Assembly (NCBI GenBank): GCA_003990745.1
Contig: RBNI01002088.1
Location: 1 to 19,765, forward strand
Origin: Jimgerdemannia flammicorona
Lineage: Eukaryota > Mucoromycota > Endogonomycetes > Endogonales > Endogonaceae
Length of the DNA stretch: 19,765 nucleotides
Direction: 5' to 3'
This document shows, piece after piece, positions 11,283 through 19,634 of the stretch (position 1 is its first letter; each line of letters opens with the position of its first letter). The notes beneath the pieces are model-generated. The model did not search any database and was not told the origin of the DNA. It saw only the letters and a program-made list of their open reading frames with translations. Made by a program: the position numbers and the translations under genes.

Positions 11283-11436
11283 TATGTGGCACAAGTTATG
11301 CTTGTACTCAGAAATGTTGTACGATTATTTATTTAAGTGTATTTTAAACGGTTATTTTTTATTCAAAAGTATTTTATTATTGATGAATTTTGCCTCAAGT
11401 AGGCAGGTGCAACCGAATTTCGCGCCGGCAGAGTAG
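11283..11436 (-). repeat. Right terminal inverted repeat
   Basis: This is the inverted counterpart of 9606-9760. It ends 88 bp before the SulP start codon. Confidence 0.93.
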
Positions 11437-11524
11437 TATAATTATAATAAGCCGTCCGCATGACGCAATAAGTCGTAAGTCTTCGTTCCACGCAGACGCG
11501 TTCTTGCCAAATTCTCCCCCAAAT
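11437..11524 (+). promoter_or_regulatory. Short SulP leader next to the element
   Basis: Only 88 bp separate the element's right end from the SulP ATG, so the promoter or 5' UTR of the transporter must abut or include element sequence. Confidence 0.5.
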
Positions 11525-14212
11525 ATGTCTGCCAGCTTGTCCGTGCCTGAATCTGTGCCCAACGACAGCGACGATGATGTTATCGAGCTTCCTCGCTCTG
11601 GGGAACAAACCCCTCTCCTAAAGGACAGTGTAACTGGATACCGCAGCGCTTTCCCCTGTACGAACTCCCATTTCCACTCCTTCAAAGTTAAAAAAAAAAA
11701 TGGGATCCGTCTGATCCAACCCCAATCCATACTCTACTCCCCCTGCTAAACCCAGTGCCTTCAGCCCGTGTCTACGACAGCCCACCCAAGGACAAGCTGC
11801 AAACGTTCTGGACCCGCACCAAGTACTATGTCCCCGTGCTACAGTGGCTGCCCGCCTACGAGATGCGGTTGCTTTTGGGCGATGTCATCGCTGGCCTGAC
11901 CCTCTCATGCCTACTGATCCCTCAGGCCTTGTCGTACGCGACCGCGCTCTGTAAGCTTCCAGCCATACACGGGCTGTATGCCATTGCATTTCCAGCGACC
12001 ACCTATGCTTTGTTCGGGACGTCGCGGTAATACGCCCACCAAATATTTCCCCCATTTGATCCTGTGGAACGGGAGCAGTTCTCTTGAATGTCGATTGTTT
12101 TTTTTTTTTCTTTTTTTTTTTTTTTTTCTTCAATCTCTGTGACGTTAATACGCGGTTTCATATACCTCCCCAGACAACTCTCCATGGGCCCCGAAGCAAC
12201 ACTTTCGATGCTCGTTGGCTCCGCCATCGCCCAGATAACCCACTCATCCTCCAGCGAGCTGGATCCCCTGGCTCTTGCTTGCCTTATGACCCTCTTCGTC
12301 GGCGTCTTCACCTTCCTTTTAGGCCTCTTCCGACTGGGCTTTCTGGATTCCCTCATGTCGCGTGCCCTCCTCCGCGGTTTCATCACGGCCGTCGCCATCG
12401 TCGTCATGGTCCAGCAGAGCATCACCCTTCTCGGCCTCGTCGAGACTAGCATCGATGCCGGCATCAATGAGGCCTCCTCCACCATTGATCGCGCCATCTT
12501 CCTCATCCAGCACTTCCACCTCGCCCACCCTCTCACATCCGTCGTCTCCGCCGTTGCGTGTTCGTTCCTCTTCAGCTTCCGCCTTCTCAAAAGCAGATTC
12601 CCCAACGCTGCCACGCTACAAATTACACCCGAGGTCTTGCTCGTCGTCGTCTTGGCCACAACACTCACGGGTATCTTTCGCTGGGATAAACTCGATCTGA
12701 AGATCCTCGGCGACGTCAAGAGCGGCGGGATCCCCTGGCCATCCATCCCGAGGATGCCCAAGGTTAAGGTCGTCAAGGATATTGCATTCACGTCCGCGCT
12801 CATCTCCATTTTGGGTTTCGTCCAATCAATCGTTATCTCCAAGACGTACTCGTCAAAACATAATTATTCCGTCAGCCCCAATCGCGAGCTGATTGCTATG
12901 GGCGTCGCGAACATTATAGGCGGCCTGTTCCAGGCTATTCCCGCCTTCGGATCGGTACGTACTCTTCAATTTTTCATTCTTGCCTGACGCCACCGCCTTA
13001 TCATGCCGTTCGTTTTTCATCTGACCCTCCACCTATATCTCTCCAAACCTCTGCAGGTGGCTCGTAGCAAGATCAATGACCGCGCGGGCGCTCGAACGCA
13101 GCTGGCTGGCTTCATAGCCGGGGTGGTTTCCCTGCTCGCCATCTTCTTCCTTCTTCCCTACTTCTACTACTTGCCCAAAGCCGTGCTTTCGTCCATCATC
13201 TTTGTCGCCGTGCTCTCGCTGCTCGCCGAGGCGCCCGAGGACATCGAGTTCATGTTCCGCATTCATGCATGGCGGGATTTCACCCTCCTGTGCATCATTT
13301 TCCTCGCCACCGTCTGCGTGTCGCTCGAGATGGGGACGTTGCTCGCTGTGTCACTGTCGCTGCTGCTTACGGTGAAGGAGACGAGCTATCCTAGGATCAC
13401 GATTATGGTAAAGGGGGGGGGGATGTATGTGTGAGAATTTGGGTTAAAATGGGGTGGAAAATAAGGCTGAGCTTAAATATTGGATGGACTCGTAAATTGG
13501 TCATTGAACCCCGTTTTATTTCGCCGGGATCGCACTTGGCAGGGCCGCGTGAAAGGCACTACCAACAAGTTCAAACCAATACGTGATGCCCCCGAAGGTA
13601 TGGTCGAGCACGTTGAGGACACGCTTATTGTCCGCGTTGAGGAGCCGCTCTTTTTTGCCAACACTGGTAAGTACCGCCTTGGAGTATTTCATGTTGTGGT
13701 AAATCACGAGACGCTGAGGCTGGTCTAATCTTTGTTTCTGGGTCTTTCTGCTTTCCCCGTACGGCCTCTCGCGCAGGCCAGCTCAAGGACCGTCTGCGCC
13801 GTCTGGAGCAGTTTGGCGACATGTCGGTGCACCCGAGCGAGGAGCCTAGGTTCGGCGCTATCTCGAACGTCATCTTTGACGTCGAGCTGATGCTCGAGAT
13901 CGATGCCAGGTAGGTTGTGGATTATTGCTATGTGTTTTCCTCTTTTATTTCGTTCCGTTCCTCTTTGCCTTACCAAGCAACAATGATTTTTCTTCCGCAA
14001 ACGACAGCGCGATTCAAATCCTCATTGAAATTGTCGAGGCATACCACGCGCGCCACGTGCAGGTATTCTTCGTCAAGGTGCACGAGGAGGCGCGCGAATT
14101 GTTCCAGCTCTCGGGGCTGATCGAAAAGGTTGGCACTGACCACGTCATCAAGCGCGTATCCACGGCGATTGACTACATCGAGAACCATACGGAAAGATAC
14201 AATACTGTTTAA
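11525..14212 (+). CDS. SulP-family sulfate/anion transporter with C-terminal STAS domain
   Basis: Exons 11525-11627, 11756-12026, 12174-12954, 13057-13407, 13543-13666, 13777-13909 and 14008-14212 join in phase to 655 residues. An acidic cytosolic N-terminus is followed by the Sulfate_transp core. Its signature includes DVIAGLTLSCLLIPQALSYA and GLYAIAFPATTYALFGTSRQ, then SMGPEATLSMLVG and KINDRAGARTQLAGF. Ten or more hydrophobic segments run to about residue 495. The STAS domain (about 515-650) has VIFDVELMLEIDASAIQIL at the usual conserved loop. Family members carry sulfate or other anions, often with protons. The sequence recalls the fungal group containing yeast Ypr003c rather than the Sul1/Sul2 plasma-membrane permeases, but substrate and membrane are not shown here. 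Intron 2 holds a T12-C-T17 tract (12098-12127). The gene converges on the SBP2-like gene, 215 bp away. Confidence 0.93.
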
Positions 14213-14427: not shown

Positions 14428-17400
14428 CTACACCGCCCCCAACATATTACGTATCTCCTTGACAATTTCCTCGTGGGATATTGGCGCAGCTTTACCGCTT
14501 CGGCCGGACTGCCTTTTCTTTTCATCTATTTTGTCTTCGATCGCTCTAGTCTTCACTTTTGCCAGCACTTTCTTGTCCTTCCCACCGTCTTCTTTTTCGT
14601 TTTCGTCACCTTCGTCCGAGCTCGTCTCCGTCTCCTCCACACTTCCTCCACCACCGGCTTCAGTCTCCTCCTTCACACCCACCACATCACCGCCCTCCTC
14701 ATTCACTGCCTCACCAATCCCAACAACCTCCATCCCCATCCCCACCACCTCCCTGGGCACTCTACCCTCTAAATCCGGTACGCCGATATCACACTTTCCC
14801 TCCCATACCAGAATTTTCACCACTTCTCTCCTACCTCCCCATGCCGCCCACCACACCGCCGTGTGTCCCATCCGATCCCGCGCGTTTACGTACGCCGCGT
14901 CCGGCGGCATGGGCTTCGAAGCGCGCGCTGCGACCGCGGGTGGCTTCCCCGAACGACGCACGTACGCTTTGGGCGGCGGCGGCGGCGGCGGCGGGATGGA
15001 TGCGTGGACGAGTGCGCGCACCAGGTCGGCGGCGGTGGTCGATGGAAAATTCGGGTCCTTGCACGCGACGATCAACGGCGTCTCGCCTTGGTTATTGACC
15101 GTGTTCCATAACGGGAGCGGCAATGCATCTGACCCCAAAGAATCCTCGTTACGGGCACTCACCTCCGCTATCCTTGTCTCCCCCGCCACCAACACTGCTC
15201 TCACCACCTCCACCTCCCCGCTCACGACCGCCATCTCCATAATCCCACTCTTGTTCGCTGGCTCCCTCGCCCACAAATCAATCACGTCCGCGTATTGCAG
15301 TAGCGTCCGCACGCACTCGAGATGTCCTCCCCTCGCCGCGACCATCAGGGGCGTAAACCCGGCAGCGTTGGGCGCGTTAACGAGCTGTCTGAGCGAGTAC
15401 GGTCTCGCTTCCCGGTAATGCTCCAACATGAGCGCAAGTACGTCGTCGTGTCCATGTGCCGCGGCCAAGAACGCACACGTCTCTCCCCGAAACGACTTCG
15501 CCGTCACGTCGACCCGGCCGTCGCCGTAAGCCTTCAAAATATGGTGCGCGAATTCGACCCGTCCGTACCGGCACGCGACCAGTAGAGGTGTCATGCCGTT
15601 CACGCCGTCGGGCTCGTCGAGGCGCCATCCTGTCGCGACGCAGCGGTCGACCAGCCCTGGGAGGTCGTAGCCGTAGTAGGCCGCGAGCCAGAGCGGGGTC
15701 TCGTTGCGCGAGTTGTGTAGGACGGGGGGCATGGGTTGGGGTCGTTGCGGCCTGTCGTCCGCCATGTCAGACGCCTTATCTGCAGGTGATTCTCGTCCTT
15801 GCTTCGCCGCGAACTGCTGGATCCATTCCTGGCGGCCCTGCTCCGCGGCGTCGAGCATGCGACGGTGAAAGCCCTCTGCACCGTCGACCCGAGTGATGCC
15901 GATGCAGGAGAAAGAGGTGTCGCGCGTGCCGCAAATGACGGCGCCGAGGGCGTGGCGCGTCATGGAGAAGACGACAGGGGTCGAGGCCTTGTGGCAGGCG
16001 GTGAGGATTGAAAGCGTCATGTAATCCAGGCCGGCTGGTTGAGTGGGCAAGGAGAGGGTAAGAAGGTTTGGTGGGTGTTGGCTGTTGTTTACCAGGAGCA
16101 ATGAGAACGCAAATGGATATGACAATGATCGGGGGAAACCGTACTGCCTTCTTCCGTCGTTTGTTCAATGTTCCGTGCCATGATGACGCACTTGATTCGG
16201 CCCCGCTTCACGTGTTTTAGCACTTCACGAAGGCCCATGTACATCCTTCGCTTGGATTTGGCCTTTATGTTGAGAAAAACGAGATGGACATCAGCACATC
16301 AATCCTCCAAAACCCGCAACCTATGGCCGGGTTTGAGTGAAGATCGACTGTCACGGTCAATCTTGCTCGTTCCTCCTCAGTATGTGTTCGTATAAAAGTA
16401 CACGCAACTCACTTTAGTTGCATTGATGTTCAACTGCCGCTTCTGAAACCTCATAATCTCCCCTAGAAAGTCTCGCACAATTTTGTCGAGCTCCTCCGTG
16501 CATATCTGGGTGCAGTAGCTGGTAATAAAAGAATGATGTCGTCACGACATTAACAATAAATCTTTTCGAGGACTCGTCTTCCCACACAAACCCGAATCTC
16601 ACCATCTGGCCTCCCCTCGATCCCGTATGAATCGTGGCCTCTCAAGCGCGATGCGAACAGCGTGCGACTGCGGATCTGAGATCTTCTTTGAACGGCGTTT
16701 CTTGGAGGCCTGACGGCCCTGCGGTTGGGGCGTTGTCTCGGCTATGGGTGGGTTGTTGGAATTGGAAAGTGAGACGACAGACTGCTGTTGCACCGGCGTA
16801 TGTTTTGGGGGTACGATGGTGGTGGGATCGACATAGGACGGTAACGGTGACAGATGGAGGATGGAGGCGAAAGTTCTAGCGAGGCCGGGCGAAGGGGCTG
16901 CGCGGGAGTCGAGATCGAGATCGTGAGAGGGTGACGAAATACTTGTTATTTGTGGGGATATGGTAATTTTTGATCGTTCCGAGCCCTCTTTTGTCACCAC
17001 CAAGGCCATTTCTTCATTGCCGTTTCCGCTTTCTTCGACATGATCGTCTTCCGAATCTTCCCCGTTCACCTCAGTCTTCACCAATTCCTCTACCTGAACC
17101 ACCTGTTCCTCCTGCCCTGCCATGCTCGCTTTACCGACTTCCTCCGATTTCCCTCCCCCTCTTTCATCTTTAAACGCCTCATCCGCTTCCTTCCTCTTCT
17201 CAAACACGGCCTTTTTCATCTTCGTTGTCTTCTTCTTCTTGGGCGTCAGTCGTTGGATCCCGCGATACTTAACCGAAGGAGCCGACCCGTCGACCGTGTT
17301 GGTTTGCGTCAATTGCAGCTTGTCCGGGTTTGTTACGAAAGGTGCTCCGTGGGACCAGTCGGGCTTTGGATTCGTTTGCGAACGGGGTACGCGAGGTCGT

Positions 17401-17720
17401 TTGTCAGGGTTGTGTTGTCGCGTGACGTCTTGATACGGTCGTGACGCCGGGGCAGAGGCAGAAGACCGCCGTTGTACAGGATCTGTTGCGGCATTCTCTA
17501 TTTTCTGTTATTTTAGTAAATTGCAGGTTATCGCTTCTATTCATGTATTGTAATGGATCTGGCGCCGCATGAATAAGCATACTTCTAGCTGGTCACCGAT
17601 CAGATCAGCAAGGGACATGGGAGCGACCTTCCATTTTTTTTTGGGTTGGGCGGTAGCGAAAGCTGGCGTGGTTCCAAAGGTTTGATGTGCGAATGAGGGG
17701 TTGTTTCGTCTGTCGGCCAT
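14428..17720 (-). CDS. SBP2-like (SECIS-binding protein 2) L7Ae protein fused to ankyrin repeats
   Basis: Exons on the minus strand are 17720-17583, 17504-16603, 16518-16413, 16262-16145 and 16034-14428. All junctions keep phase, giving 956 residues. Residues 1-46 include KKKWKVAPMSLADLIGDQLE, and 123-150 a Lys-rich stretch ending AVFEKR, placed like the SID of animal SBP2 (IILKE). Residues 150-335 are low complexity and acidic/Ser-rich. The L7Ae domain spans about 346-496: CYCTQICTEELDKIV, EIMRFQKRQ (animal RFQDR/RFQER), MYMGLREVLKHVKRGRIKC, VIMARN, GLDYMTLSIL and STPVVFSMTRHALG, then a GITRVDGAEGFHRRML ending. About seven ankyrin repeats follow (532-845), interrupted by a Pro8 linker, then an acidic tail. 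SBP2 recruits eEFSec/Sec-tRNA to SECIS elements; that function here is inferred. The 16263 acceptor is AAG, not the usual C/TAG. The alternative, two genes, is unlikely because L7Ae and ankyrin share exon 5. Confidence 0.87.
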
Positions 17721-18325: not shown

Positions 18326-19634
18326 ATGGCCGCTCAGATGACTTCAGTAAAGACTAGGCGGGCAGAGCTGCGCAGAGAGACGATCGAAAATATTCTAAGT
18401 ACCCCACACAGTTCAGAGGAAGATGTTGCAACAAGCTTAGCGGAAATACGCAGGATTGTCGCCATCGAGGGGCTGCCCGTCGTAAGCAATTAGAAGCGAA
18501 TTCCACCGAGCTCGTCGTATCAATACTTTCTAACATCATTTTATCTCCCATATACCCATCTGCTCCGCTATGATCTCAACTCAAAAGCCAAATACTTCCG
18601 AGTTCTCTCCAGTCCGTCCGGCCCCCATCCGGCCCCGGGACCTCCAACATCGGCTCGTACATTATGACCGCCAACGCCTTCGTTCACAGGTTTGGAAGGT
18701 GTTTCTGGGTGTCTATCACGTCTCTGCTACCGAGTATACGTGCTTGGTTAAGAAGGGTCCGTCCGATGTCTACGACAAGGTGCGCAACGATACATTCCGT
18801 ACATTGGCGACGGATCAGGGATTTTCCATGGAGGTACAGGAAGGCATGCTGATAAGGGTGCTGAATGCGTTCGCGTGGAAGGCAAAAGGTAATTGGCGTT
18901 CTCTGGTTTGGCTGCGGTCAATTTTAAGTACTAGTTGAATAATATTGTCTTTACCTGAATTCCAGGCGATTTAGCAACCTCTCCCCCTCCGACAGGTCAT
19001 GACCCTCTGGAGTTTACCTACGTGCAAGGCATGAATGTCCTTGCTGCACCATTTCTGTACGCCATGCCGGAAGTGGAGGCGTTTTTTGCCTTCTCAACCC
19101 TGATTCAGTACTGCTGCCCGATGTACGTCCAGCCATGCTTGCAGGGTGCGCATTGCGGATTGAAGGTAAGAGTGGATCTACATTCTGGCACATAATCTTG
19201 CAATTTTCCTCTTTCGCATGTCCTGTACGTCCTGCCAACTCGCGCGCGTTCTTGCAGTTGTTGGACATGTGTCTTCAGGTTGTAGATCCAGAGCTGTTCG
19301 GGTACCTGCGCGGCAAGAGCCTAACGGCAGAATTATATGCGTTTCCATGTAAGCTACGTTGCAATTTCTTTCACCGACATTAGCATAACTTTAAGACCAT
19401 ATTTTGTACTCAAATGATATATCTGCTAAGTTTATTCCCAAAAAGACTCACTGCTTGCTATTGTAAACTTGAAAATGCTCGATTAGGTGTTTTGACTTTC
19501 TCTGCGTGCACACCACCTCTGGATCAAGTACTGGAACTTTGGGATTTCCTTTTTGCGTTTGGGATGCATCTCAATGTATTGTGCATTGTCGCACAATTAT
19601 TAATGATTCGAATCGATCTTTTGCAAAGTCCAAG
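18326..19634 (+). CDS. BUB2: Bub2/Cdc16-type TBC GTPase-activating protein (3' truncated)
   Basis: Bub2 (Cdc16 in fission yeast), with Bfa1/Byr4, is the GAP for the Tem1/Spg1 GTPase that times mitotic exit and septation at the spindle pole body. Exons read 18326-18481, 18603-18888, 18966-19165, 19258-19348 and 19487-19634>. The exon 2 start is uncertain: an acceptor at 18587 would also keep frame. The TBC domain shows WKVFLGV, the arginine-finger motif VRNDTFR (IxxDxxR class) and the glutamine finger YVQGMNVL. It continues with MYVQPCLQGAHCGLK, GKSLTAELYAFPC, LTFSACTPPLDQVLELWDF and LFAFGMHLNVL, all strongly Bub2-like. The start at 18326 is the first in-frame ATG. The last donor (19635) opens into homopolymers at the window edge, so the final residues are missing. 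Confidence 0.93.

Follow-up and report, generated by a model that had tools for sequence, protein, structure and literature searches.

A predicted SBP2 ortholog with C-terminal ankyrin repeats, and its accompanying selenocysteine genes, in the fungus Jimgerdemannia flammicorona

The closest described relatives of the gene reported here are the animal SECIS-binding proteins SBP2 and SBP2L (SECISBP2 and SECISBP2L). In the available part of PMC2746813, the selenocysteine (Sec) incorporation domain (SID) is described as unique to the SBP family, Q520 and the RFQDR motif of SBP2 are tied to Sec incorporation, and K650, L681, and N730 are given as SECIS-binding positions, which differ between SBP2 and SBP2L as well. 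Among fungi, a 2019 study reported Sec use in nine early-branching species, Bifiguratus included (as related in passages of PMC7988114 and PMC10386755), which fall in the Chytridiomycota, Zoopagomycota, and Mucoromycota (excerpt of PMC11378755), with Harpellales making up seven of the nine (passage in PMC10386755). Six fungal Sec-user names are printed in the available text of PMC7988114, among them Bifiguratus and Gonapodya, and the Endogonaceae (Jimgerdemannia, Endogone) are absent from these six. A 2021 proteome survey denied the occurrence of Sec in fungi, as no examined protein record holds U (PMC7988114, same portion).

J. flammicorona belongs to the Endogonaceae, in the order Endogonales, where NCBI taxonomy now also files Bifiguratus, so that the Sec trait had already been reported within this order. 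The window, i.e. the whole stretch of 19,765 nucleotides of J. flammicorona DNA that was analyzed, contains on its minus strand a gene that hand-splicing resolves into five exons (17720-14428) with GT-AG introns, a start and a stop codon, and a predicted product of 956 aa; from its sequence, this gene looks complete. Like animal SBP2/SBP2L, its product carries a SID core, an RFQ-R motif, and an SBP2-type L7Ae domain in this order; it differs from them in having no long N-terminal regulatory half and in the addition of a C-terminal ankyrin-repeat domain. The features are as follows.

17583-17720, minus strand: SBP2 exon 1, with the start codon and an N-terminal SID motif, SLADLIGDQLEK, resembling the human QLDL region (alignment with the Endogone and human sequences)
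16603-17504, minus strand: SBP2 exon 2, with the SID core, an acidic/low-complexity linker, and the beginning of the RNA-binding domain
About 17300-17163, minus strand: SID core, residues ~115-160, within exon 2
16413-16518, minus strand: SBP2 exon 3, with the YCTQ...RFQKR segment that precedes the L7Ae core
16145-16262, minus strand: SBP2 exon 4, with the L7Ae core (MGLREVLKHVK...)
14428-16034, minus strand: SBP2 exon 5, with the end of the L7Ae domain (GLD, TPVVFSMTRHALG), the ankyrin-repeat domain (residues ~555-845), a charged tail, and the stop codon
15811-16607 including introns, minus strand: whole SBP2-type RNA-binding domain (RBD), residues ~346-496, from PDB search, tree, and alignment
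14764-15636, minus strand: ankyrin-repeat domain, which shares its exon and reading frame with the final part of L7Ae (Ank_2, E 4.1e-25)
About 11390-14212, plus strand: sulfate permease (SulP) gene; the Pfam match covers 12088-12987 only and the ends were set by eye
About 18330-19390, plus strand: RabGAP-TBC domain gene (Pfam), upstream of the SBP2 gene and divergent from it

The initial annotation had proposed an SBP2 homolog at 16145-17720. This interval covers exons 1-4, but the gene extends 1.7 kb further, to 14428. The SBP2-type motifs quoted there for the minus strand are present and can be joined through predicted GT-AG introns; GLD and the following motif also exist, but lie in exon 5 (16034-14428), outside that interval. 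The L7Ae domain had been recognized, whereas the SID (exons 1-2) and the ankyrin repeats (exon 5) had been overlooked. Next to the gene, SulP and SBP2 stand tail to tail with ~0.2 kb between them; SulP proteins can carry selenate, and the pairing may be due to chance. The left half of the window gives matches to Not1, RRM, and phosphatidylserine decarboxylase.

When the Endogone gene model is aligned to the window protein, residues are continuous over all four exon junctions. The two proteins are identical at 487 of 877 positions, with 79/156 in the SID part (residues 1-160), 48/126 in the linker, 128/170 in the RBD, 180/307 in the ankyrin part, and 47/103 in the tail, so the linker is less conserved than the RBD and the ankyrin part. 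Pfam reports Ribosomal_L7Ae (E 4.7e-9) and several ankyrin families, the best at E 4.1e-25. The database protein of this gene (P0003, 530 aa) begins inside exon 5, so that it is missing the SID along with the greater part of the L7Ae domain.

In a search of the entire PDB, SBP2 is the one strong match of the RBD, with an E value of 5.2e-25 (91.3 bits), whereas the next L7Ae proteins reach at most 17.5 bits (E 0.02 or worse). The N-terminal 182 aa gave two PDB matches, the better of which is SBP2 503-548 (E 0.0054). There, N-terminal to the RBD, the SID core (K517-R543 in human) is present, with 19/40 residues identical and Q520 kept. The RFQDR motif at 654-658 of SBP2 appears as RFQKR (4/5). 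Together with the proteins of Endogone and Bifiguratus, the window protein retains the human SID residues G518, Q520, and R521 and the RBD residues R654, F655, Q656, R658, G676, and L681. The FRDY motif is not conserved in the window protein, and human K650, L681, and N730 correspond to G, L, and T; N730 is replaced by T in all three fungal proteins, and K650 by G, K, and Q across the three.

The same domain shows a weaker likeness to L7Ae, Snu13, Nhp2, and eL30 in the PDB search, which would be expected if the gene encoded another RNA-binding protein of the L7Ae family (eL30-, Nhp2-, or Snu13-like) that merely resembles SBP2. In a pruned tree of 16 rows, the three fungal proteins group with animal SBP2 (95/89; recovered in 96% of 200 bootstrap trees) and separately from eL30, Snu13, and Nhp2, including the eL30 and Snu13 of the same genome. 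This tree was obtained by dropping four long-branch rows (human eL8, P0010, P0011, and P0012); with all 20 rows, the split of fungal plus animal SBP2 has a support of 82/76, and the tree program gave a long-branch warning on both trees. Constraining the fungal rows to Snu13 alone or to Nhp2 alone was rejected (p < 1e-6 in single-family tests), while joining them with eL30 costs just 4.8 log units and was not rejected (p 0.12), nor was joining them with Snu13 and Nhp2 together (p 0.12). An AU test uniting fungal SBP2 with all other L7Ae families (p 0.18) was set aside as uninformative, since it merely places the root, and the single-family tests were used instead. The genome already has its own Snu13 and eL30 genes (90/122 and 80/105 residues identical to the human proteins), which also argues against another L7Ae protein at this locus. 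What decides for SBP2 over the other L7Ae families is the SID, unique to the SBP family; together with the score gap, it largely refutes the alternative, which we consider extremely improbable. The initial assignment to SBP2/SBP2L, not Nhp2/eL8/eL30/Snu13, is thus upheld by the score gap, the tree, and the SID, with the eL30 grouping as a caveat.

With residues 335-520 as query, three of 408 candidates were retrieved in a word-limited search of ~5.8 billion proteins, which may miss other fungi: an Endogone sp. protein (74% identity over the searched region), a Bifiguratus adelaidae protein (51%), and the window's own fragment. When 7998 candidates were scored with a profile of fungal and human sequences, a limit through which further fungi may have escaped, 11 proteins were retrieved: those of Endogone and of the window (the fragment), bird and fish proteins named as SBP2 or SBP2L, one flatworm protein, and three unnamed ones. 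The Endogone (BC937DRAFT_87678) and Bifiguratus (BZG36_02854) proteins, both named "hypothetical", share the SID core, the L7Ae domain, and the ankyrin repeats with the window protein, and L7Ae and ankyrin families are listed for their entries as well (P0001 and P0002, respectively). The Bifiguratus model differs in extending much further at its N-terminus, probably through fusion with a neighboring gene. In contrast to the window protein with its ankyrin repeats, the animal proteins retrieved by the profile have PF01248 as their sole Pfam family. Two of the unnamed SBP2-like proteins (P0011 and P0012) show RRM or zinc-finger families beside the L7Ae domain, so that SBP2 may have acquired additional domains in other cases as well.

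Five factors of Sec synthesis and decoding other than SBP2 were sought in the same genome, and four of them are present; Sec machinery genes are likewise present in the early-branching fungi of Mariotti et al. 2019, so far as the excerpts cited above describe them. A complete tRNA-Sec with anticodon TCA (UCA) lies at C2694:12498-12583 and scores 72.8 bits against a cut-off of 47; it is the only one of five matches above this cut-off, the other four being below. SepSecS (contig C622, 11 exons) is full-length: it is identical to its human counterpart at 245/459 residues, scores 563 bits against TIGR03531 (cut-off 224.85), and matches PDB chain 3hl2_A at E 6.7e-154. eEFSec (contig C934, 12 exons) is full-length too, identical to the human protein at 282/568 residues, and matches the eEFSec PDB chain 5izk_A over residues 2-573 of 574 (E 2.4e-167); its score with the NCBIfam model of bacterial SelB is below the cut-off (172.8 vs 242.25). 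The gene model is probably inaccurate in the details of two introns (28 and 32 nt). The database record of eEFSec from J. flammicorona (P0013) departs from the spliced gene at these introns and at the 3' end, where the record seems to read into an intron. The three best matches of eEFSec are the J. flammicorona, Endogone, and Bifiguratus proteins. The eEFSec search gave nine matches, and six loci were examined, one of which is eEFSec itself; the others were judged by eye to be EF-Tu, IF-2, eEF1A, and related GTPases. An eEFSec-like protein of 608 aa was also seen in the chytrid Synchytrium microbalum (P0044; 50% identity across the whole query), which makes this species a further candidate fungal Sec user.

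The fourth factor is SPS2 (contig C4700, 11 exons), identical at 200 of 343 aligned residues to human SPS2 and scoring 248.7 bits to the SelD family TIGR00476 (cut-off 125) with Sec entered as Cys. A TGA at C4700:3833 is in frame and aligned with Sec, with no further stop until the final TAA, and the Sec site reads LKG-U-GCK-VPQ through an 8-nt exon. The gene start was not found on C4700 by spliced alignment to the human protein. J. flammicorona is therefore a probable Sec-using fungus on the evidence of its genome, and the initial suggestion of a "candidate selenocysteine user" is supported by tRNA-Sec, eEFSec, SepSecS, and the UGA-containing SPS2, although PSTK and a recognized SECIS, also looked for, were not found.

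These family searches were run exon by exon on an assembly of 7754 contigs that looks incomplete: the highest-numbered contigs seen (C7707 and C7726 of 7754) exceed 10 kb only slightly, so that the assembly searched was probably cut at 10 kb. The absence of PSTK, SECIS, and further selenoproteins is weak evidence for this reason. Within this scope, PSTK gave no match with TIGR03575 and four weak matches with PF08433, none of them convincing after spliced alignment to human PSTK. Rfam SECIS_1 had no match genome-wide at E <= 10, nor downstream of SPS2. A hairpin 193 nt after the SPS2 stop (L019, 6023-6081) has UGA/GA flanks and unpaired AA, which we take to be features of a form-2 SECIS; criteria set after seeing it give 11 background matches in 142,248 nt (both strands), or ~0.07 per 870 nt. 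We regard this hairpin as a weak SECIS candidate. Among the selenoprotein families tried, UGA was found in SPS2 only. GPx (PF00255) and Rdx had no exon-wise match in the genome at E <= 1, and none of nine AhpC matches has a TGA. A missing glutathione peroxidase is odd for a fungus, for which the exon-wise search and the incomplete assembly may account. No animal-type thioredoxin reductase was found among the TGR matches read: of eight matches, seven fall in two genes that look, by eye at three loci, like glutathione reductases, and the eighth (contig C96) is weak. Two TGA codons flagged at one TGR locus come after the last conserved stretch of the protein and are probably situated beyond a splice donor.

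A repurposed SBP2 ortholog, which would keep the fold and some role in translation or RNA binding without Sec insertion, with the ankyrin domain marking a new job, would agree with the lack of a recognized SECIS and of PSTK, with the ankyrin fusion, and with the replacement of K650 and N730. We nevertheless find it improbable: the SID core and RFQ-R are retained, and tRNA-Sec, eEFSec, SepSecS, and UGA-SPS2 are all present, with reading frames that are open in each of the three protein genes, whereas loss of these genes is expected once a genome abandons Sec. It is also conceivable that some Sec genes of the assembly come from another eukaryote, given that the assembly is fragmented (7754 contigs) and that, among the Sec-gene contigs, only that of eEFSec was matched to a J. 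flammicorona record. Such contamination appears highly improbable, since the nearest proteins of both SBP2 and eEFSec are those of Endogone and Bifiguratus, and since the window correlates in tetranucleotide composition at 0.73-0.83 with the stretches that hold SPS2, SepSecS, tRNA-Sec, and eEFSec. The latter test is weak; three shorter pieces taken from this assembly gave 0.65-0.80.

We conclude that the gene is very probably the J. flammicorona ortholog of SBP2, working in UGA-selenocysteine decoding. If the gene is expressed, as we infer, its RNA target would be a kink-turn-like element of selenoprotein mRNAs, bound by the L7Ae domain/RBD as in animal SBP2. In its presumed recoding activity, the RBD together with the SID would, as in animal SBP2, bring eEFSec with its Sec-tRNA-Sec to ribosomes that stand at a UGA, where Sec would be inserted; SPS2, itself a predicted selenoprotein, would make the selenophosphate for SepSecS. 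The C-terminal ankyrin domain would be a protein-binding module gained by the lineage of the Endogonales, with docking or regulation as its most likely role.

A bolder proposal is that the Endogonales have a remodeled Sec-insertion factor, in which the SBP2-fused ankyrin domain provides a protein-tethered route, to the ribosome, eEFSec, or an mRNA-bound partner, permitting RNA signals unlike the canonical SECIS. This we put forward tentatively, as being rather unlikely. Consensus SECIS elements are said to be absent from most fungal selenoproteins in the 2019 study of Mariotti et al., and the absence of a SECIS_1 match here fits that result; the ankyrin fusion as part of a shift away from the consensus SECIS is speculation. 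If the tethered route is real, SBP2-ankyrin and unusual fungal recoding signals would have co-evolved.

Our literature search returned no paper joining SBP2, ankyrin repeats, and selenocysteine, and none with the phrase "fungal selenoproteins"; for selenoprotein with Endogone or selenocysteine with Jimgerdemannia it returned just one review, whose selenoprotein passage, in the text available, concerns Harpellales (PMC10386755). The Sec trait is thus known in kind, and what looks new, within the literature searched, is the nearly complete Sec system of an Endogonaceae genome, as well as the SBP2-ankyrin fusion common to Jimgerdemannia, Endogone, and Bifiguratus. The truncated P0003 and the altered eEFSec record of J. 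flammicorona exemplify how annotation can overlook a Sec system. Automatic gene models commonly stop at UGA or skip it, and the argument from protein records without U therefore does not reach the genome evidence given here. Fungal Sec use being disputed in print, an SPS2 gene that is open but for a UGA precisely where the Sec codon is expected bears on the dispute. Jimgerdemannia is putatively ectomycorrhizal (PMC12574304, in the part available). With the Sec genes described here, the selenium dependence of such a plant-associated fungus becomes directly testable, and the ankyrin-fused SBP2 offers a handle on a possible rewiring of Sec insertion.
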